64,000 nt of DNA from Phycisphaerae bacterium (lineage in GTDB: Bacteria > Planctomycetota > Phycisphaerae > UBA1845 > UTPLA1). Both the position numbers and the translations under genes were made by a program. Positions 12,635 to 62,065 of this stretch are shown here, one piece after another. The first letter of the stretch is position 1. The number at the start of each line of letters is the position of its first letter. A model generated the notes under the pieces. The model worked only from the letters and a program-made list of their open reading frames with translations, searched no databases and had not been told where the DNA came from. The stretch spans positions 1-64,000 of the forward strand of contig JAHBXN010000002.1 of assembly GCA_019636475.1 (NCBI GenBank), written 5' to 3'.

Positions 12635-12660
12635 AGTTTGAGTGGTTTGCGAGGGCGGCA

Positions 12661-12907
12661 GCCGCGTCGGCCGACGCGGGCCTGATTGATGGACACCGTC
12701 CTGAAGCGTCGGACTTCCGCCAGACGGGACCGCCGCGTCGGCCGACGCGGGCCTGATTGATGGACACACGAAATTAAACAGGGCGCCGGCCCGTTCGCGC
12801 CGCCGCGTCGGCCGACGCGGGCCTGATTGATGGACACCGCTGCGCGCTGCTATCCGGCGCGGCGGTCGGTCGCCGCGTCGGCCGACGCGGGCCCGATTGA
12901 AGTGCCT
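12661..12907 (+). CRISPR. CRISPR mini-array, 4 repeats of 36 bp and 3 spacers
   Basis: Repeats start at 12661, 12732, 12802 and 12872, and the first three are identical over 36 bases. Spacers are 12697-12731 (35), 12768-12801 (34) and 12838-12871 (34). The repeat contains the perfect 18-nt palindrome CCGCGTCGGCCGACGCGG, then GCCTGATTGATGGACAC. The fourth repeat keeps its first 22 bases but is degenerate after that, as expected for the leader-distal end. This places the leader on the effector side with plus-strand transcription. The TGGACAC end resembles the TGGCAC end of known V-B repeats. The array is very short, so acquisition is either recent, slow or largely lost. Confidence 0.95.
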
Positions 12908-38858: not shown

Positions 38859-41800
38859 TTAGCAGCGTCGCCGAAAGCGAACCCGACTCAGCAACATCAG
38901 CGGAAGCAGCATACCGGATGCTGCCATCGTCCCACCGCCGCACACTGGCGCGAAACTCAGCCCGCCACCCGGATTCAGCCCAGGGGCTGGGGAACCGGCC
39001 GGCCCGCCCGGCGGGAAGGGTTCCGCCGTCGCCTCCGAAACGCCGATTGCAAACTCTCCCGCACGGTCAACCACCACCCACGCCATGCGAACGTCCGCAC
39101 CGAGCGACAACACGGACTGGACTCCGCCTCGACCGACATCCCCCGCCATCGGACGGGGTGGATAAGGACCCGCCTCCGGCGCGCCATCCACCGCCGGTCG
39201 CCATTTCCCGGCGCCGCCGTCCCACTGATGAACCCGAACGATTGCATCCGCGGATGCGAGTTCCTTCAGATCAAAGAGCATCCCCACAACCATCACAAAG
39301 TCCCCGCGCCTGGACGTGGAATCGATTGTCAGCCGCCGATCGATCGATGCATCGCTCAGAAGTCCCGAGCGATCGGCCGATCCGCCGGCATCCCTCAGAC
39401 TGCCGGCAAATCCCTCTCCAGGCGCCGCTCCCGCCACACGCACCTCCGCGGCCTCGTGGGCTTCCGCGATTCGCAGAGACATGAAAACGCGTCCATCCAT
39501 GTTGACCTGCATCGCACGCGATGCCGCAATCGCCTCAATCGCGACCACGTCACTTGATGCGCATCCGCCAACCGGATCCGTTCCCGTCACCTGCAGCGCG
39601 TAACTGCCGACGTCTCCCGGCGTGAATACCGGGTGTGCCAGGGTCGGGTCACTAAACTGGCTGGCATCGAGCGACGGACCGGCCAGCACGCGCCATTCGT
39701 AGCGGATCGCCGCCCCACCCGATGTCGCGGACGCCGGACCCAGTGGCTTCGATGGAGAAAATGCCGGGGTGACAAAATCACCGCCGGCGTCGACGCTCAA
39801 TTTCGTAGCCCGCACGGCCAGAACGCCGGATGTCGAACACGCGGGCGATGCCGAATCCGTCGCGGTCAGTCGAAGCGTGTATGACCCCGCCTCTTCGGGG
39901 ATGAACAGCCACGACGGATCGAAGGCGTTCTCATCAGCGAACCGGGCGGTCATCGTTCCGGGGGAATCCGATTCGACCGTCCAGTTGTAGTAAACGGGCG
40001 CATTCCCGCCGACAAGCGTCGGACGCGGCAGCCTGACGCCCCCGGAACCAATGCAAGTCGTCACCTCCGCCGGCAGTGCCAGATTCATCGCACCGGCCGA
40101 CACCCGGATGACCCGGCTGACCTCGGACACCGGCGTGCTGGAGTCGCGTACTGTCACGCGAAGCGAATACTCGCCCGCCGACGCGGGAGTGAATGTCGGA
40201 CGAGACGACAAGGGACCATCCCCGCCGAACTGGCTCTGCGACACGTTCGGACTGCCGGATTCGACCTGCCATGCGTATGAATAAGGCGGCACGCCCGGCG
40301 ACGTGATGGACACCGCCAGCGGCGCGGACACGCCGGCCACACACATCGAGAAGTCAGCGGGCACACCGAGGGTCATCAGCACCGAATCAACGGTGACCGT
40401 ATCCGAAACCGAACAGGCCGCCGTCGTGTTCGAGTCCATCGCAGTCACGCGCAGCACATACCGTCCCGGCAGCGCCGGCGTAAATGTCGGCGATGACGCC
40501 GTCGCGCCGCCGCCCGTGAACTGCGCCGGCGAAAGGCTTGGCGCGCCGGGCTCTACCTGCCATTGATATGTCACCGTGCCAACCGCCCCACCCACGCTCG
40601 GCGTCAAAGGCGCTGTCGATCCGCCGAAACCGATCGACCGATCCGGTCCCGCATCGACCGACATGCCGTACACCGTCACGATCGTGGTATCGCTCTTGAC
40701 GCAGGGCGGCTGGGTCGAGTCGCGCACAGTCACCCGAACTTCATAGACTCCCGTTTGCGAAGCCTGAAACGTCGGCCGCATCGCGGTCGGCGAAATCAGC
40801 GACGCGCCGCCGGGGCCCGACACAATCTGCCATTGGTAGGTGTAAGGCGGTGTCGAGCCGCTGGCGACAATCGCCCCGCCGAGTTGAACGGTCGCCTGCC
40901 CGGCGCAAACCTGCATCGCCGGTCCGGCGCTCACCATATAGGGCGGATCGCACTCATCAGGAATGCCATTGCGATTGCAGTCTTCGCTGGTTCCATTGGC
41001 GATGTCACACACATCGGGGATGCCATTCTGGTTACAGTCCGGCATGCCGCCACCATCGGTCTCGCATTCATCCGGAATGCCATTCGCATTGCAATCGGCG
41101 CTCATTCCCGCCGCGATGTCACACGAATCCGGCAATCCGTTCCCGTTGCAGTCGGAAGTGCAGCCGACGGTACAATGGAAGGGTCCGCCCGGCGCGCCGG
41201 AACCCGCTGGAATTTCGCACTCATCCGGAACGCCGTTTGAGTTGCAGTCCGCGCTCACGCCATTCGCAATATCAATTCCGTCGTCCACGCCGTTGGCATT
41301 GCAGTCGCATGCGTTGCTCGTGAGAGTAAGGTGCGCCTCGCGCGTCGTCAGGGGCTGGCCACATTGGCCGATGATGACGCAGTGATACCGCCCGGCCTGC
41401 TGTGCCGATACGCCGGTGAGAACCAGGATCGATGATTGCGCGCCGCTCACATTCGGACCATTCTGAAGACTCTGGAACGCCGCGCCCGTATGGGCCTGCC
41501 ATTGATAGCTGAGATTCGACCCGCTTGCGACCGCTTCAAACACCGCCATGCCGCCGGGGCAGGCCGATGCGTCTGACGGCAGATCGAAATTGTCATTCGT
41601 CGTCCACCCCGGAACATGCAGCAAGGTCGGGCTGGTCGCCAGAGCCGCGCCGCACTCGCCGGTCACCACGCAGCGATAGGCGCCTGCGTGAACGGACGCC
41701 GCTTGGGGTATGGTCAGCGTCTCACCATTGACACCCGGCAACCCGCTTTGGGGGTCGATGTCCGCGAATCCGGAGCCGCCGTCAAACTGCCATTGAAACA

Positions 41801-44800
41801 TCAACCCGACGCCGGTGGCCGTGGCCGTCAAGGACACCCCCTGACCGGGGCACGCCGTAACCTGGCTCGGACCGTCAAACACGCGCGTCGCCGGCCGGAC
41901 CGCCAGTTGAATCGATGAGGACTGCGCCGTCATTCCGCAGCCTCCCGTGACGAGACATCGATACGCGCCGGCGTGAGAGGCCGACACATTGGCGATCGTT
42001 AATGTCGGCGTACTGACACCCGATACCCCCGCCTCGGTCGGAAGCAGCGCGCGCCATGTGCCGTTCCCGTTGAACCACCATTCATAAAGCAGATCACTGC
42101 CTGTTGCAGTGACGCCGCCTGTAAAGGTCTGGCCCTCACAAAGTGTCTCGTCCGTCGTCTGATTCACGATCGCCGCGGGAACACGCACTGTCAGATGAGT
42201 TTCACCACTCGTCGCGCCGGCCCCGCAGGCGCCCGACACCACGCACCGATATCGGCCCGACCGGATCGGCTGAACGCCGGCCAGCGTCAGTATGGCAGTC
42301 TGCGCGCCGCCAACTCCCGTATCGGCCGAGTCCGTCAGATCGGCGAACTCCTGATCAGACGCATACTGCCACTGATACCCGTTATCGACGCCCGCCGCTT
42401 CCACGAAAAGCGTCACGGTTTCGCCGATGCATGCGGCCCTTTGCGGGCTCGGATCCGTCACGATCGACGTATCGCCGCGAATCGAGAGCACAGCCGCCCG
42501 GCTCACCGCGGATCCGCAGGGAAGTGTCACGACGCAGTCAAAGAAACCCACATGGCCCGACTCGACTGACGGAATAAGCAGTTCGTGAGTCGCCGCGCCA
42601 ACGAATGCGGCGCCATCCAAAGCGACTCCGTTCCGTCTCCATTGAAATGTGGCGCTCCCCAAATCGAGCGATTCATCCGGCAGCACGGTGAACCGCACTT
42701 CGTCACCGAGGCAGGCCGCGACGTCCTCCGGCTCGCCCGAGATGATCCGCGTGAACGAGGCGGTCACGGTCTTCGGAAAATCAGCGATAACGGCCGTCGC
42801 CGTCGCCGCCGGATCGATCGGCTGCGCGCCCGTGTCCACCGTCCAGCCGGCGAAGCAGAAACCCGATGCAGCCGAGGCCGTGATGGATACCGGTTCACAA
42901 ACGGTGTACTGCCCTCCGGCGCTTGGATGCACCGCCCCGCCGCCCTCCGGCACACGCTGCATCGTTAACGCAATTGGCCCCTCGCAGTCATCGGGAATCT
43001 CATTCGCATTGCAGTCCGCGCTGGTCTCGGACGCGATGTCGCAGCTGTCCGGCACGCCGTTGCCGTTGCAGTCTGTCGCGACGCCGGCCGCAATGTCGCA
43101 CAGGTCCCGAACGCCATTGCCGTCACAGTCCGCTGCCGATTCGCACTCATCCGGAATGCCGTTGCTGTTGCAGTCCGTCACGCCGCTTTCAGCCTCATAA
43201 TCAAGACGAATCTGTGCCGACGACGGCGGATCGCACAAATTGGCGTCCACGGCCGACGATGCCGTCAGGAGAATCGTGGCTGATCCGCCCGCCGCGCCAA
43301 GTGACGCATTGAATGCCGCACTTGTGACACTTATGCTCGCCGTGACCGGCGCCGCAGGACAGTCCAGTCCGCCGTTCTCAAACACCCGGCCGATCCACGT
43401 TCCATTCAGTCGAACATCGAGATATTCTGATTCGGCGCTGAAGTCCCCCCGGGCAGTCACTTCAAGGGTCACGGACCCGACCGCCGCGGGCAGTCTGGCC
43501 AAAAGAAAGCTTCCAGGCGCGCCGGCGCCGATCGGCCCCTGAGCCGACGACGTTACAACATGTCGCGTCCGCACATCGCAGGCGTCGGGCATGCCATTCT
43601 CATTGCAATCCGCGTCGCAACCGGAAACGCAGTAATAAGGCCCGCCGGGCGCGAGGCTTGCCGACTCGATCTCGCAGACATCGGGAGTGCCGTTTCCGTT
43701 GCAGTCCGTCGCCGGAATGATTCGCCCCAGCAGGAACGCGCCGCCCCCGCTCGGCAGGCTTGCCGTGCTCCCTGACACCGTCTTGGCAATCGGATCGCGA
43801 TGCGTCGTGATCGCAGACGCCGTACCGGTCGCCGTATTGAACCAGAAAAGCTCAAGCCCCGAATCATCTCGAAATCCGCCCTCATGCAGTGCGGCATCCG
43901 AGTAGCTGACTGTCAACGTCGCGGCACTTCCCGCGGGAATCACCGCAGTCGACGCAAGCTGAAAACCGAAGCCGGCATATCTGAGGGCAAGTCCTCCAAA
44001 CGGCGCCAGATCAAATCCGCATCGCGCGCCCGTCCCGATCGATGTGACGCTCGTCAGCCCGGTCGTCGTCACTTCGGAATATTCAACGGAAATCCCGACA
44101 CACGCCGCGCAGCCGTCCGTCAAAGGTCCGACCGATACGCTCATTCCCTTCGGGGTGTAATTCGAGTCCGACCCGAGCCACGCGACGAGGTTCCGCAGAA
44201 ACGTGCGATGTCCCGCTCCATCATCGAACAGATCCGCAAATATCGACGAATCGCAAACCAGACCCGCGCGGCCGCCACCGCTCGACGCATCCAGCACTGC
44301 GGCAAAAGCGCCGGGTCCCGCAGCCTCGGTGTACAGCGCAGTCGCCGGAACATTCGCCCCCTGAAGATTCATCAGTCCGAAGGTCGCATTCGTCGCTGCA
44401 ACGAGACCAACGGACCCGAACGGACCATTTGCAAGTGCATGCCCGCCGCCCGTAAACACCGGTCCGGTTGTGGAATAAGTGCCGTCGAGCTTGCTGATGC
44501 CGAATGCCGACAGAAACGAATCGTCGCCGCTGTTATAGATGCCGGCGTCGCCAACCCACAGAATGCGCCCGCCTCCGTCAAAAAACGCGCGGAGTGCATC
44601 GCGCTCCGCCGCAGTGTAAACAGCGTCCGTCTCCAGCAGTGGCAGCCAGAGAATGCGAATGCCGCCAAGGGATGCCGCATCAATGGCATTGACCTGCGTC
44701 ACGAGATGACCGTCCGCGACCAGCGCATTCCGCGCCGCGCTCATTGCAGGATCAAGCAGGCTCAGGTTGGGATATTGCCGGGCGTCCGACAGGCGAAGGA

Positions 44801-54171: not shown

Positions 54172-57100
54172 ATGATTCTAAAAAAACTCACCGCGACGGG
54201 CTTCAAAAGCTTTGCTGACAAGACCGAATTCGAGTTCGACAAGGGCATCACCTGCATCGTCGGACCCAACGGCTGTGGCAAGAGCAACGTCGTCGACGCC
54301 ATCAAGTGGGTGCTGGGCGAACAGTCCGCCAAGAGTCTTCGCGGCAAGAACATGCTCGACGTCATTTTCAATGGATCCGGAACGCGCAAATCCAGCGGTC
54401 TGGCCCAGGTCGATCTGACGTTTGACAACTCCGACGGGACCCTTCCCGCCGATCAGACCGACGTGGTCATCTCGCGCCGGCTCTATCGCAGCGGCGAGAG
54501 CGAATACCTCATCAACAAAGCGCCGGCCCGCCTGAAAGACATCCGCGAACTGTTTCTCGACACGGGCATCGGCGTGGACGCATACAGCGTCATCGAGCAG
54601 GGCCGCGTCGATCTGATGCTTCAGGCCAATCCGCAGGAACGCCGAGCAATTTTTGAGGAAGCGGCGGGCATCAACAAATACAAGCACCAGAAGAAGGAGG
54701 CATTCCGCCGGCTCGAGCGAGTGAATCAGAACCTCCAGCGCGTTCAGGACGTGGTCGAGGAAATTGAAAAACGACTCAGAAGCGTCAAGCTCGCGGCGGG
54801 CAAGGCGCGAAACTATGAATCGTACATGTCCCGGCTGCGCGAACTTCGAAGCCGACATGCCCTCAGCGAATACCACCGGCTGCGCATCGCGTTGGATGAA
54901 CTGACGCGCGTCGCGAACGAACTCCACGACCGCGTCACGGCCCTTCGCACCGAGCTGTCATCGAATGAAGCCCGGACGAGCGAGACGAATGTGCGCATTG
55001 TCGACCTGGAACGCGAAACGCAGGAAGTCGAATCCCGGCTTCATGAGGTTCAGTCCCGGATGACGGCCATGCAGGAGCGAATCGCCGCGAGTGAACGACG
55101 GATCGTCGATCAGCAAGGCCTGCTTGACCGATCGCGCGAGCGTCTGTCGCAGTTCGACGAGCAGGTTGCGGCGTTGAACTCGAAAATCTCCGCTCAGCGC
55201 GAAGCGGCCGAGGGGATTGAAAACGAACTGGCCGCAGTCGCTGATGACCAGCGTCAATGCCAGAGCGAAGACACCGCCTGCGCCCACGAGCTGAACGAAC
55301 GAAAAGTCGCAATCGAGGAAGCGAAGGAGAGCATTTTTGAAATGGCTCGGCGGACGAGTCAGCTCAATAACGAACTCCAGGGACACGGCATTCAGCGAGA
55401 GTCGATCCATGTTCAGAAATCGAAGCTCGACACCCGCGCACAGGAGATCGCCGCCGCCATCGATGCAGCCGAGACCGCACAACGGGAACGCATCGATCGC
55501 CGTTCCCAGATCGACGCGGTCATCGCGGAAAAAACAACGAGCCTCGATCACACACGCTCTCGAATCGCCGAAGCGGCCCAGCAGCGGGCGGCATTGCACG
55601 AGCAGATCGCGGCCGCGAAGGAACATCGCAGCGGACTTGATAGTCGCCGCCAATTGCTCGAAGAGATGGATCGCAAGCACGAGGGCCTTCTCGCAGGCGC
55701 CCGGGAGATTCTCGAGCGTCGCGACACCGACAGCACCGGGGCGGCATTCGCCTATGTCCGCGGCGCGGTCGGAGAAATCTTCGAGACCGATGTCGCCCAT
55801 GCGCGACTCGTGGAGGCCGTTCTCGGTTCGCTGGAAACCTACCTGGTCGCGACGAACCGAATCGCCCTGCTTTCTGATCTGGATTCGTTCGGCGAATTGT
55901 CGGGCCGCATTCAATCGTTCTGCCTTGATTCGATCCCGCCGCACATTGGCGGGCCGGACCTGTCGGCCCAGGATGGATTTGTCGCCAGAATTCTTGACTG
56001 GGTACGGGTGCCAGAAGATTGTCAACACCTGGCACGGCACCTGCTTGGTCGTACTTATGTCGTCCGCGATCTCAATGCAGCCGCCGCCATGGCGCGGCTC
56101 GACTCCGGCGCGCGGTTCGTGACGCCGGACGGCGTTGTACTTGAGTGCGACGGCCGTGTCAGCATCGGTTCACTGGCCAGCGATACCGGGCTAATCAGCC
56201 GGCGAAGCGAGCTTCGTGAGCTGACTCGCGAACTGGCTGAAGTTGCCAATCGCATCGCCACGATGTCCGGCGAATTGCAGACCCGCGATTCCGAGGTCAG
56301 CCACCTCGAACAGATGCAGTCGGACCTGCGCACCGCCTTGTACGAAGCGAACACCGAGCGTGTCGAGGTGCAGGCCACTTTGAATAACCTTGAGAACACA
56401 ATGCGCCGGCTGGCGCAGGAAGGCCCGCTCGTCGCTTCTGAGATTGCGGTGCTTGACCGCCGACTGGGCGAGATTGACGCCCGGGAGACCGAAGCCCGAC
56501 AGGCGCTGACGATCGTCGAACAGCGTTACTACGATGCCGAACAGCTCTCCGGCCGCCTTCAGGGCGAAATTGATGAGTTGCTCGTCCGGCGGCAGGCCAT
56601 CTCCGAGCGCATGACGTCCGCACGCGTTCGTGTCGGCGAGTTGTCACAGCGGCGCAGCGCCGTCGCCGAGTCGATTCGGGAATTCGAGGCAGCGGCGATT
56701 CAGCTCGATGCTGACCGACGCCGAGCCGAGAGCGACGTCATCGAAGCGCAGGAGCGGATCGAGCAATCACAACGCCAGATCGACGAAGCCCGAGCCACGC
56801 TTGACCAGCTTTCCGAAGAAAACACGACGCTGGTCCATCGCAGCATGACGTTGCGTCAGGAGCGCGACAACCTGCGCGAAGCCTGTGAACAGCTTGCCCG
56901 TGACGCACGGCGGCTTCGCGGCGAACTGGAAGCGGTCGAATCCGACCTGCACGAGCGGGAGATCAAACTTCAGGAGATTCGTGTACGCATTGAAGACCTG
57001 ACATCCCGCATCGCCGAGGAATTGTCGGTCGATCTGGCGGCGCAGTATGAGTCCTATGTGCCCGATCAGACAGAGGACTGGCCCGCGATCGAGGCCGAGA

Positions 57101-57753
57101 TGAGCGACCTGCGCCAGAAGATCGAACGCCTCGGCAACGTGAATCTCGACGCCATCCGGGAGCAGGAAGAACTCGAACAGCGACTCGAATTTCTCGTCAA
57201 GCAGCTTGAGGACCTTCGGTTGAGCGAACGACAGCTCGGGTCGCTCATCGAACGCCTGAACGAGGAGTCGCAGCAGCGATTTGTCGAGACCTTCAACGCC
57301 GTGTCCGAGCACTTCACCAAGCTGTTCAAGAAGCTCTTCGGCGGCGGCAAAGCCGAGGTCGTGCTGCTCGATCCCAACGACGTCCTCGAGTGCGGCATCG
57401 AGATCACCGCACGGCCGCCGGGCAAAGAGCCGAGAAACATCAGTCAGCTATCGGGCGGTGAGAAAACGATGACCGCTATCGCGCTGCTGATGGCGGTGTT
57501 CCGGAGCCGGCCGTCACCCTTCGTGCTGCTGGACGAAGTCGATGCGGCGCTCGACGAGGCGAATAACATCCGGTTCAGCAATGTCGTGAAAGAGTTTGTC
57601 GAACTCTCGCAGTTCATCGTCATCACGCACTCCAAACGCACCATGGCGATCGCAGACGTGATGTACGGCGTGACGATGCAGGAAGCCGGCGTCTCCAAAC
57701 GCGTCAGCGTTCGGTTTGATGACGAACGCAAGACGAACGCGGCGGTGGCATAG
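54172..57753 (+). CDS. smc: Chromosome partition protein SMC
   Basis: 1193 residues, the normal bacterial SMC size. The N-terminal ATPase half has Walker A GPNGCGKS (residues 31-38) and the Q-loop region. Two long coiled-coil arms flank a central hinge (about residues 515-640, with GAAFAYVRGAVGEIFETDVA). The C-terminal half has the ABC signature QLSGGEKTMTAIALL and Walker B FVLLDEVDAALDEAN. It forms the condensin core with ScpA/ScpB, whose genes are not in this window, to organise and segregate the chromosome. A rearranged copy of its 3' end lies at 59057-59200. Confidence 0.96.
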   Translation: MILKKLTATGFKSFADKTEFEFDKGITCIVGPNGCGKSNVVDAIKWVLGEQSAKSLRGKNMLDVIFNGSGTRKSSGLAQVDLTFDNSDGTLPADQTDVVISRRLYRSGESEYLINKAPARLKDIRELFLDTGIGVDAYSVIEQGRVDLMLQANPQERRAIFEEAAGINKYKHQKKEAFRRLERVNQNLQRVQDVVEEIEKRLRSVKLAAGKARNYESYMSRLRELRSRHALSEYHRLRIALDELTRVANELHDRVTALRTELSSNEARTSETNVRIVDLERETQEVESRLHEVQSRMTAMQERIAASERRIVDQQGLLDRSRERLSQFDEQVAALNSKISAQREAAEGIENELAAVADDQRQCQSEDTACAHELNERKVAIEEAKESIFEMARRTSQLNNELQGHGIQRESIHVQKSKLDTRAQEIAAAIDAAETAQRERIDRRSQIDAVIAEKTTSLDHTRSRIAEAAQQRAALHEQIAAAKEHRSGLDSRRQLLEEMDRKHEGLLAGAREILERRDTDSTGAAFAYVRGAVGEIFETDVAHARLVEAVLGSLETYLVATNRIALLSDLDSFGELSGRIQSFCLDSIPPHIGGPDLSAQDGFVARILDWVRVPEDCQHLARHLLGRTYVVRDLNAAAAMARLDSGARFVTPDGVVLECDGRVSIGSLASDTGLISRRSELRELTRELAEVANRIATMSGELQTRDSEVSHLEQMQSDLRTALYEANTERVEVQATLNNLENTMRRLAQEGPLVASEIAVLDRRLGEIDARETEARQALTIVEQRYYDAEQLSGRLQGEIDELLVRRQAISERMTSARVRVGELSQRRSAVAESIREFEAAAIQLDADRRRAESDVIEAQERIEQSQRQIDEARATLDQLSEENTTLVHRSMTLRQERDNLREACEQLARDARRLRGELEAVESDLHEREIKLQEIRVRIEDLTSRIAEELSVDLAAQYESYVPDQTEDWPAIEAEMSDLRQKIERLGNVNLDAIREQEELEQRLEFLVKQLEDLRLSERQLGSLIERLNEESQQRFVETFNAVSEHFTKLFKKLFGGGKAEVVLLDPNDVLECGIEITARPPGKEPRNISQLSGGEKTMTAIALLMAVFRSRPSPFVLLDEVDAALDEANNIRFSNVVKEFVELSQFIVITHSKRTMAIADVMYGVTMQEAGVSKRVSVRFDDERKTNAAVA

Positions 57754-57787
57754 AAGAGTCCGCTGTACTCCTGCCACAATGAAATGG

Positions 57788-57831
57788 AAAAAAAGTGCCG
57801 TGCTGTTGTTTCACGTCTCAACAGCACGGCA
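57788..57831 (-). terminator. Strong intrinsic terminator, minus strand
   Basis: A 13-bp perfect stem (57796-57808 with 57819-57831: TGCCGTGCTGTTG and CAACAGCACGGCA) with a 10-nt loop. It is followed on the minus strand by a run of seven U (A's at 57788-57794). It ends transcription of the minus-strand exported genes coming from the right and also stops it from running into smc in antisense. Confidence 0.9.
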
Positions 57832-57858
57832 AACTGGATCCACCAAACGAACGAGGAT

Positions 57859-58308
57859 TTAAAGGGGTGTGAGTGTTCCGCTCAGGACCTCTTCGATTTC
57901 ATCAGAAACAATCACTCCAATCTGAGTACCAGAGCCAACTTGTCGCAGTGGAACAACTCCCGTCAATGTTCCATCCTCGGTGGAATGGAGCGTGTAAACG
58001 TCGTTGTCCACGCGAACAGCCGCGGACTTCGGTATCTTCGGAAACTGGTGCGGCGCGAACGCAGTTTGGTAGTCGACCGGAATGTGCGTCACAACGTCGA
58101 CTTGCAGTGTGCTCGCCATTGAATCCCACTTGGCGCGCACTTCGATTCCAACGTCCTCCGCCCACCAGCGCATTTCGGCTGGCGAGAGGAGGCTCGATGA
58201 CAAGTCTGCCGGCTTGGATGCGCCAGCGGGGCCATCCGAGAGTGCGATCGAGAGAAAGCTCCCACTTACCAGAAAAACCGCAACTAGAGCTAACACATTT
58301 CGATTCAT
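57859..58308 (-). CDS. Small exported protein of unknown function
   Basis: 149 residues. The N terminus (MNRNVLALVAVFLVSGSFLS) is a signal peptide or a membrane anchor. The mature part is short and mixed beta, with RWWAEDVGIEVRAKWDSMAS and VDVVTHIPVDYQTAF, and no recognised motif. It is 22 bases after the next lipoprotein gene and ends at the strong terminator, so the two probably form one transcript. Confidence 0.6.
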   Translation of the reverse strand: MNRNVLALVAVFLVSGSFLSIALSDGPAGASKPADLSSSLLSPAEMRWWAEDVGIEVRAKWDSMASTLQVDVVTHIPVDYQTAFAPHQFPKIPKSAAVRVDNDVYTLHSTEDGTLTGVVPLRQVGSGTQIGVIVSDEIEEVLSGTLTPL

Positions 58309-58330
58309 GGTTATTTCTCCATATTAGGAT

Positions 58331-58807
58331 TCAATAGAGCCTCGTCGAGTCTCGGTACGTGGTTCCGTTCTGGAGTTTAATTATGACCTGCCCTTTCACC
58401 GGGCTCTCATGACCACCTACTTCTACGTTGATTTCTCCAATATCAAGCTCGGAAGTTCCATCCGGATCCTCTACTTCCCGCTCGTGAACGATTTCAGTCG
58501 GATCGGGCTTCCCGTTCCCATCTCGATCCACGAATACCGTTATCGTTCCTTTGGTAATCTTAGGGCCTCCGTCCAGCACTGTCGCCTTTACGCCGGTCGC
58601 AGAGATATTGATCGGCACGGTTCCGCCGCCTGTCACCGAAACTTTGATCGCGACCACCTGGAATTTCTTCGTTCGCATGAGTGTTGCGTTTCCACTACCC
58701 CCTGTTCCCGAGCAACCGCTCACACACCAGCCCGGGAAGATGAACAAACCAACCATGACTGCGAAGCAGTGCGCCTTCACTTTGCCATTCAGTTGTCCCA
58801 CATTCAT
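58331..58807 (-). CDS. Small lipoprotein with a beta-rich domain
   Basis: 158 residues. The signal peptide with lipobox near WCVSGC places it in the envelope. The body has a repeated beta pattern, with GTITVFVDRDGNGKPDPTE showing a DxDxNGxxD calcium-loop-like motif, and ends EVGGHESPVKGQVIIKLQNG. No family is recognised. It is the upstream gene of a two-gene unit with the following exported protein. The 250 bases upstream are AT-rich, with a C-run and a short A-run around 58938-58970. Confidence 0.58.
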   Translation of the reverse strand: MNVGQLNGKVKAHCFAVMVGLFIFPGWCVSGCSGTGGSGNATLMRTKKFQVVAIKVSVTGGGTVPINISATGVKATVLDGGPKITKGTITVFVDRDGNGKPDPTEIVHEREVEDPDGTSELDIGEINVEVGGHESPVKGQVIIKLQNGTTYRDSTRLY

Positions 58808-59056
58808 TCCTCCATGATCTTATTCTGATCCAAATCTCCTCATTTTCCATCCAGTTACCTGCTTAACCCGGTTGCGCACCCGAGTGACACTGACCCGAAC
58901 ATTCTGTAAATCACGTGAACCCGATATGGGGAATATATCCCCCCCCCACACACTAAAAAAGCAAGAAAATGTCCAAGTTTTTCGCTATTTTTTGAATTCA
59001 TGAGTCTCAAGCGTCACGGATCCGCAAGAGACGAGGACATGTCACCTCACCAACTC

Positions 59057-59200
59057 GCCATCAGCAGCGCGATGGCGGTCATGGTCTTCTCGCCGATTGC
59101 CGACATGATGTATGACGTGACGATGCAGGAGGCCGGCGTCTCCAAACGCGTCAGCGTCCGGTTTGATGACGAACGCAAGTCGAACGTGGCGGTGGCATGA
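59057..59200 (+). pseudogene. Rearranged remnant of an smc 3' end
   Basis: The last 106 bases (59095-59200) encode a copy of the smc C terminus (VTMQEAGVSKRVSVRFDDER), about 10% diverged from 57648-57753 in DNA. The preceding 38 bases (59057-59094) are the smc signature-region sequence in the opposite orientation: their complement encodes GEKTMTAIALLMA, as at 57458-57495. About 150 bases between the two parts are missing. It is therefore a deleted and internally inverted duplicate and not a functional gene. Confidence 0.85.
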
Positions 59201-59304
59201 ACTCGGATTTGGCAACAAACGCCACGCACGCACGACCGGCGACTCCACTTCGCTTCGTGCGTTCAGGATGATGATCACGGGCCGACAGCGGAGCCGGGCC
59301 GTCG

Positions 59305-59993: not shown

Positions 59994-60986
59994 TCAGCGG
60001 GCGTCTTCGACGATTCTCGTCACGACGGCCTGATTGCTCAACCCTGCGTTCGCCGCGGCCGCCATGAAGCCCGCGTCGGGCGCCAGGCACGGATTGGCAT
60101 TTACCTCCAGAATGAATGGACATCCCGCCGCATCAACACGAAAATCGACGCGGGCATAACCGCGAAGTCCGAACACCGTCCAGCATCGGCGGGCAAGGTC
60201 GGAAAGCGTGTCCAACAGTGGTCGATCCGCCGTGGCAAAGTCGAACGTTCTGGTTGTATTGACATACTCAAACGCGCTTTCATCCCACTTCGCCGCATAG
60301 GTGACGATTCGCGGCTTGTCCGCCGGGTAACCGACAAACTTGATTTCGGCCGGCGGCAGCACTTCGCATCCGCCGAGCCCCTCTGTCAGCAATGAGAGAT
60401 TGAATTCCCGGCCATCCACGTAGACCTCGGCGAAGGCGTCGCCGCCCAATTGTTGGCGACGAATTTTGATCTCGGACTCCAGCGTTTCGGCCGCCGCGGC
60501 AAGTATGACCGACGAGTCATCGATGCCGATGGACGCCTCCTCCCACACGGACTTGACGAGATACTTCGCCGGGAACACCGCGCCGCCATGTGCCATGAGC
60601 CGTCCACGATTGATCTCGGCCCATGCCGGTGTCGGCATGTTGCCGCGCGCGAGCCAGCGTTTGGCCAGCAGTTTGTTCGAGGTCAGAAACATGGCTTCCG
60701 TCCCCGCGCCGGTGTAGGGCACCGCCATCGCGTCCAGCAGCGCGGGCGCCAGATGGATCAGGCGGCCCGCGCCTCCAACCGATTCAACCAGATTGAACAC
60801 CAGATCGGGCGCCGCCGCGGCGATACGCTTTCGCATGGCGGACAGATCGGCTGTAAACGCCATGCGTGACGATTCGATGCCGCATTGCGACAGAACCTTG
60901 CCGATGAATTCGGCCTGCACCACGGCATCGACTGCGTCGGGGGGCGCATCGGTTGGGATGTCGTCGTGCAGAAAGAGAATCCGCAT
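59994..60986 (-). CDS. ATP-grasp ligase (D-Ala-D-Ala ligase-like), copy 1
   Basis: 330 residues. The ATP-grasp pattern of D-alanine-D-alanine ligase relatives is visible: MRILFLHDDIPTDAPPDAVD at the start, VPYTGAGTEAMFLTSNKLLA in the middle, KYLVKSVWEEASIGIDDSSV for the ATP lysine loop, EVYVDGREFNLSL, and the C-terminal metal-binding DFRVDAAGCPFILEVNANPC. It makes an amide or ester bond from a carboxylate and an amine with ATP. A second, similar ligase follows 53 bases upstream in the same operon. The substrate is unknown; it is likely not true cell-wall Ddl. Confidence 0.82.
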   Translation of the reverse strand: MRILFLHDDIPTDAPPDAVDAVVQAEFIGKVLSQCGIESSRMAFTADLSAMRKRIAAAAPDLVFNLVESVGGAGRLIHLAPALLDAMAVPYTGAGTEAMFLTSNKLLAKRWLARGNMPTPAWAEINRGRLMAHGGAVFPAKYLVKSVWEEASIGIDDSSVILAAAAETLESEIKIRRQQLGGDAFAEVYVDGREFNLSLLTEGLGGCEVLPPAEIKFVGYPADKPRIVTYAAKWDESAFEYVNTTRTFDFATADRPLLDTLSDLARRCWTVFGLRGYARVDFRVDAAGCPFILEVNANPCLAPDAGFMAAAANAGLSNQAVVTRIVEDAR

Positions 60987-61039
60987 GTTTTATCATCCGC
61001 GAGCAACGCACCGCCTAACGGCTTTTGCGGCTGTCGACA

Positions 61040-62065
61040 TCAGGCCTGCGCGACGAGTTGTCGAATCCCCGCCGCAGACGATCGGGCTGCCGCTGATTCG
61101 ACGATCTGCCGAATGAGTTCCTGAAAAGGGATGCCATGCAGCGTGCAGATGATCGGTAGATCGGAATGTTCGGGGTGAAGCCCGGCGAGCGGGTTGATTT
61201 CGAGGAATCGAATCTCGCCTTGCGCATCGGCGCGGACATCCACGCGACCGGCGTCACGACAGCCCAGCACGCGATAGGCGGCCAAGGAGACCGACTCTGC
61301 ACGCCGTGCCAGGGAATCACTTGCGCGATGATACCGCACCCGTTCTTCGCAGTGCTCCTTGTTGGTGTAGGTGTAGATCTCCGGATCGGCACTGGCCAGC
61401 AGCTCTATTTCCATCGTGCCGATCACCCGGGCGGCCGGTCCGGTTCCGACGATGCCGACAGTGAATTCACGGCCCGGCAGGAATGTCTCCACGAGGACCG
61501 GCTGCCGATACGCTGCCAGCAGCCTCGCGCAAGCCGCATCTAGTTCCTCCCGCGATCGGATCTTGGAGCGTCCGTCGATGCCCTTTGCGGTTCCCTCGGC
61601 AATCGGCTTGGCAAACACCGGGAACGGCAGTGCCGCAGTGGCGACATCCTCCATTCGCTCAACCACGAAGAAATCGGCGGTGGGAATCCCGGCATCGCGG
61701 ACGACGCGTTTGGCCAGCGCCTTGTGCAGCGTCAGCGCGTTAACGAGCGGATCGGAGAAGGTGTACGGAATCTCATAGGCATCGAGAAGCGCCGGCACCT
61801 GCGACTCGCGCCCGATGCCATGAAGCCCTTCCGCGATATTAAAGACAAGATCCCAGCGATCTCCCGCGGCAACCCGCTGCACCAGTTGGCGAAAATGGCC
61901 GATCCGGTCCGTCTCGAACCTCAGTCCTCGCAGCGCGGACTCGATCGCAATGATCGTGTCGGGCCGGTCGAACTCAGCCGTTTCCAGTTCGGTGAAACCC
62001 TCTGCGAGATAGTCCGACCGCAGATCGTAGGTCAGACCGATCCGCATTCCCTTGTTCATGTTCAT
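61040..62065 (-). CDS. ATP-grasp ligase (D-Ala-D-Ala ligase-like), copy 2
   Basis: 341 residues. Same fold as the neighbour: MRIGLTYDLRSDYLAEGFTE, then FNIAEGLHGIGRESQVPALL and PYTFSDPLVNALTLHKALAK. FPVFAKPIAEGTAKGIDGRS is the ATP loop and RVDVRADAQGEIRFLEINPL the metal-binding end. The opening LTYDLRSDY is typical of ligase-like proteins found next to radical SAM aminomutases in Planctomycetota. It lies between the aminomutase and copy 1, so all three may act on one small molecule, such as a beta-lysine-containing peptide. That is inference from context. Confidence 0.82.
   Translation of the reverse strand: MNMNKGMRIGLTYDLRSDYLAEGFTELETAEFDRPDTIIAIESALRGLRFETDRIGHFRQLVQRVAAGDRWDLVFNIAEGLHGIGRESQVPALLDAYEIPYTFSDPLVNALTLHKALAKRVVRDAGIPTADFFVVERMEDVATAALPFPVFAKPIAEGTAKGIDGRSKIRSREELDAACARLLAAYRQPVLVETFLPGREFTVGIVGTGPAARVIGTMEIELLASADPEIYTYTNKEHCEERVRYHRASDSLARRAESVSLAAYRVLGCRDAGRVDVRADAQGEIRFLEINPLAGLHPEHSDLPIICTLHGIPFQELIRQIVESAAARSSAAGIRQLVAQA

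Follow-up and report, generated by a model that had tools for sequence, protein, structure and literature searches.

Homology-facilitated illegitimate recombination (HFIR) gives rise to one-sided events, known from three naturally competent species and from Escherichia coli conjugation (PMC3240628). Short variable segments amid conserved stretches are, according to a second study, a major form of bacterial diversity (PMC2884548). The locus described here lies in the window, by which we mean the whole stretch of 64,000 nucleotides that was analysed (contig JAHBXN010000002.1 of the Phycisphaerae bacterium assembly GCA_019636475.1, positions 1 to 64,000), and consists of a rearranged partial copy of the 3′ end of smc, the chromosome-condensation gene of this uncultured planctomycete. 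It differs from HFIR as described in that the event would have to be read from a fossil rather than from donor, recipient and empty site, and in that the joint would carry inverted filler.

Two other kinds of event also offer a comparison. As in short-range template-switch mutation, reverse-complement and forward pieces of one locus are joined, here with a 2-bp overlap; unlike in such mutation, the product lies 1.4 kb from its source, past two unrelated genes, and the source has not been replaced. Integrated elements displace gene 3′ ends, as prophage e14 does in E. coli icd. The present arrangement resembles these displaced ends in that an insert would lie between the working and the displaced 3′ end of the gene, but there is no integrase and no recurrence in relatives, and an inverted piece abuts the repeat. 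We conclude that the locus is a real, old rearrangement fossil, non-functional and ordinary in kind, which does not point to a new system or function.

Structure of the Rearranged Copy

A repeat search identified a direct repeat (105 nt, 91% identical) and an inverted repeat (40 nt, 90% complementary) that pair two parts of the smc 3′ region with two adjoining pieces downstream of it (Table 1). The direct piece is a forward copy of the last 105 bases of smc and reaches the stop codon. The inverted piece spans the codons of the SMC ABC signature (GGEKTMTAIALLMA), and the 151 smc bases between the two source regions (57496-57646) are missing from the copy. At the junction, the CG at 59094-59095 fits both pieces, an overlap of 2 bp and thus of microhomology size. 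The sequence-only reading had described 38 bases of the signature region in reverse orientation, joined to the last 106 bases in forward orientation with 150 bases missing, about 1.4 kb from the parent gene; the measured 40, 105 and 151 bases agree with it to within 2 bases, as do the coordinates, and its description holds.

Table 1. Position and strand of smc, its rearranged copy and the features between them.
Feature	Position	Strand	Remarks
smc, intact, 1193 aa, parent of the copy	54172-57753	+	NCBIfam TIGR02168 SMC_prok_B, 981 bits against a cutoff of 567
Source of the inverted piece (ABC-signature codons)	57456-57495	+	40 nt, 90% complementary to 59056-59095
Source of the direct piece (last smc codons)	57647-57751	+	105 nt, 91% identical to 59094-59198
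Spacer between the two smc ends, 1302 bases	57754-59055		Single copy in the genome; lowest-G+C 1.3-kb block of the window
Orphan ORF, 149 aa, probably exported	57859-58308	-	In the spacer; convergent with smc; no Pfam/NCBIfam match
Orphan ORF, 158 aa, lipoprotein-like, probably exported	58331-58807	-	In the spacer; convergent with smc; no Pfam/NCBIfam match
Inverted smc piece, 40 bp	59056-59095	-	E = 2e-8 in own genome
Direct piece, decayed smc 3′ end, 105 bp	59094-59198	+	E = 6.5e-37 in own genome; followed by its own TGA, 59198-59200

The similarity between the copy and smc runs one base into the stop codon, which is TAG in smc and TGA in the copy. The two differ at 13 of 145 aligned positions, and the divergence is similar in the inverted (10%) and direct (9%) pieces. 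Apart from the 40 inverted bases, the copy retains just about 34 C-terminal smc codons; it is truncated and cannot encode the protein. An open frame of 66 aa (59000-59200, plus strand) crosses the inverted piece and continues in the reading frame of the smc remnant, probably by chance.

Within the organism's own 4.4-Mb assembly, smc was matched by the direct piece with E = 6.5e-37 and by the inverted piece with E = 2.0e-8. A search of the whole assembly gave no other significant match to the copy, the next best having E = 0.12. No further pieces of smc beyond chance were present in 58808-59055 or 59201-59304, and an 11-bp similarity to smc at 59043 is of a length that most shuffles reach. When short near-identical pairs lying within 8 kb of each other were surveyed over 364 kb of the contig, the copy was the only displaced gene end recognised; the other pairs, viewed in outline, include tandem repeats. 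Elsewhere in the window there are imperfect tandem repeats at 12658-12900, with spacings of about 71 and 141 bases, and a direct repeat of 71% identity (41061-41261 and 42981-43184, about 1.9 kb apart) that possibly represents parts of paralogous genes.

Origin and Decay of the Copy

Both pieces were aligned with the smc genes of 16 relatives, all of them from outside the genus of the window. The nearest named relatives are MAGs labelled Phycisphaerae, Phycisphaerales or Planctomycetaceae, and the family is Phycisphaerae-like, within the Planctomycetota. In the variable C-terminal tail the copy (FDDERKSNVAVA) is nearly the same as the organism's own smc (FDDERKTNAAVA) and unlike all 16 relatives. 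Because this hypervariable tail matches only its own smc, the copy comes from its own lineage or from a sibling. A tree built on 115 sites pairs smc with the copy (support 0.78), on near-equal branches of 0.066 and 0.063, and the inverted piece is 97% identical to the corresponding smc piece in two relatives of the same family. Judged by sequence, the source is the smc of the organism's own lineage or of a sibling lineage, possibly a close sibling strain. A distant smc was considered as a source and is ruled out by the common tail and the tree grouping; the earlier suggestion that the copy might come from another smc finds no support for any sampled family. The 16 relatives contain no similar remnant near their smc.

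The polarity of the changes was based on counts in the 16 relatives, with weak calls at 57465, 57468, 57711 and 57733. Six changes were assigned to smc (57459, 57465, 57468, 57477, 57654 and 57711), and all six are synonymous and at third positions. The seven changes assigned to the copy are spread over all three codon positions; five of them are C>T or G>A, and one alters a Gly that all 16 relatives share. Four of these seven are nonsynonymous, as against none of six in smc, which, although the numbers are small, indicates relaxed selection on the copy. From this pattern of a live gene and a dead copy it follows that a working smc gave rise to the copy long ago and that the copy shows no sign of function. 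Similarity to a functional parent, truncation and relaxed selection, the three marks of an smc pseudogene or remnant, are all found here, and the copy is a dead, non-functional remnant of the smc 3′ end. The view of the locus as an old, rearranged partial duplicate with a microhomology-sized junction is supported.

The Low-G+C Spacer and Its Surroundings

The G+C content of the spacer is 51.7%, compared with 59.7% for the window (median 59.6%), and GC3 is about 0.58 in its ORFs versus 0.65-0.73 in the neighbouring genes. The 149-aa ORF has no clear homologue among 298 genomes of the class. For the 158-aa ORF none was found among 61 relatives, and no clear one among 392 genomes of the phylum or in plasmids. 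Searches of the spacer for mobile genes (Pfam, NCBIfam and plasmids) recognised none. Just past smc, at 57796-57831, there is a perfect 13-bp inverted repeat with a 10-base loop. On the minus strand a run of T comes next, and the repeat is a candidate that may serve as the terminator of the orphan genes, its loop exceeding the limits of our scan.

The copy sits at the far edge of the spacer, on a compositional boundary. From 59201 on, the composition is back to 64% and the genes have ordinary relatives; those recognised by Pfam and NCBIfam are a GNAT, two ATP-grasp ligases and a KamA-family radical SAM protein. The ATP-grasp genes (59994-62065, minus strand) are an adjacent, divergent, D-Ala-D-Ala-ligase-like pair and, together with the radical SAM and GNAT genes beside them, possibly form a small biosynthetic operon.

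Where Homology Ends

Past the stop codon the two smc ends cannot be aligned, although a flank duplicated with them should have stayed recognisable at a divergence of about 9%. We compared this with pairs of relatives that share a genus with each other. In one pair (G005/G014, smc 88%) homology is lost exactly at the stop codon and is back 230 and 138 bases later. In three other pairs (G012/G001, G012/G015 and G015/G001, smc 86-88%; 85-88% over all four pairs) it is lost no more than 16 bases from the stop, the flanks are unrelated and homology is not regained within 6 kb. The exception is the pair G002/G013, in which flank homology continues through the smc stop. Since same-genus relatives lose homology there, donors with homology ending exactly at the smc stop do exist. 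In many pairs homology ends near smc on the 5′ side too, and the loss on both sides therefore reflects a gene order that is poorly conserved in the family; it does not prove the smc end to be a hotspot. Among family members the flanks are unrelated, and downstream of the window smc, over about 10-15 kb, no gene order is conserved that would mark the ancestral flank.

Discussion

The reading that we tentatively favour, and to which we give slightly less than an even chance, is a one-sided event immediately behind smc, either an insertion or a replacement, that would have stranded the old smc 3′ end at the distal joint together with inverted filler. The ancestor would have carried smc followed directly by what is now 59201 onward. 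The incoming segment would have brought an smc 3′ end, derived from this lineage or a sibling, together with low-G+C flanking genes. One of its sides would have entered smc through homologous recombination; the other would have been joined without homology to a point within the resident smc 3′ end, near the codon at 57649. The last 105 bases of the resident gene and its native flank would then have been left beyond the insert, and the 40-bp inverted piece of smc may have been captured as filler at the joint. Afterwards smc would have stayed under purifying selection while the remnant decayed neutrally.

Insertion is favoured because homology stops at the stop codon and because the copy lies at the edge of a low-G+C spacer of orphan genes. 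The polarity of the changes and the pairing of smc and copy on near-equal branches also count in its favour. The distal joint, with its CG overlap, is illegitimate; an HFIR product would also need a homologous crossover at the proximal end. Several observations weigh against insertion. An empty site, with 59201 onward coming straight after smc, is unseen among relatives that include no genome of the same genus, and the spacer carries no integrase, transposase or boundary repeat. The inverted piece requires an extra step. Poor conservation of gene order around smc makes the loss of homology at gene ends common in the family and hence less diagnostic, G002/G013 retain homology through the stop, and several of the polarity calls are weak.

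Nearly as likely, and with a substantial probability of its own, is a local duplication by template switching, in which a polymerase, at work on the repair or replication of smc, would have copied 40 bases, jumped strands at the 2-bp microhomology to 57647 and copied on to about the stop codon, the product being inserted 1.4 kb downstream. Inverted and direct segments of a single locus do meet here at a microhomology, and one event would account for both pieces, for their similar divergence and for a source in the organism's own lineage. The placement requires a further jump, and this reading has to put down to chance both that the copy ends at the stop codon and that it borders the low-G+C orphan block. 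The region folds no more stably than its shuffles do (z = -0.54), and so no hairpin drive is seen. The sequence-only reading had proposed template switching or a hairpin-mediated rearrangement; this fits the inverted piece and the microhomology junction and leaves the stop-codon end and the low-G+C edge unexplained. Both are explained if an insertion displaced the old smc end.

A broader form of the insertion reading, in which the smc 3′ end is a recurrent boundary of gene exchange in the family and the copy results from one-sided recombination with templated filler, we regard as doubtful.

Much less probable is an attachment-site repeat, left by an integrative element that entered at the smc 3′ end, restored smc and later lost its integrase. 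A direct repeat of a gene 3′ end that flanks an insert and ends at the stop codon is what such an element would leave, but the 1.3-kb spacer holds no integrase and two ORFs that match no Pfam or NCBIfam family, an smc 3′ repeat near smc is absent from the 16 relatives, and an inverted piece abutting the repeat would be unexpected. We give marginally less credence to an assembly artefact or chimaera. The assembly is a draft of 18 contigs and 95% completeness, but the locus lies deep within a contig of 650 kb, about 59 kb in, and the differences between the copies, 13 in 145, are lineage-specific and consistent with selection; a simple artefact is therefore unlikely. The faintest prospect is a functional region, for example one that yields an antisense RNA against smc when the minus-strand operon is read through, or one that encodes the 66-aa peptide: the minus-strand genes, from GNAT onward, point at the copy, a minus-strand transcript would have 105 nt complementary to the end of smc and the 66-aa frame stays open, but an Rfam search gives no match, the folding is not unusual, the 66-aa ORF matches no protein family, the copy is absent from all relatives examined, its changes follow a neutral pattern, and a terminator-like site, of a kind no commoner here than in shuffles, lies between GNAT and the copy.

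The locus is a clean, small rearrangement fossil with two independent clues to its origin, the polarity of the substitutions and the base composition. With genomes of the same genus, it could show how genes flanking a core gene are exchanged in a poorly studied class.
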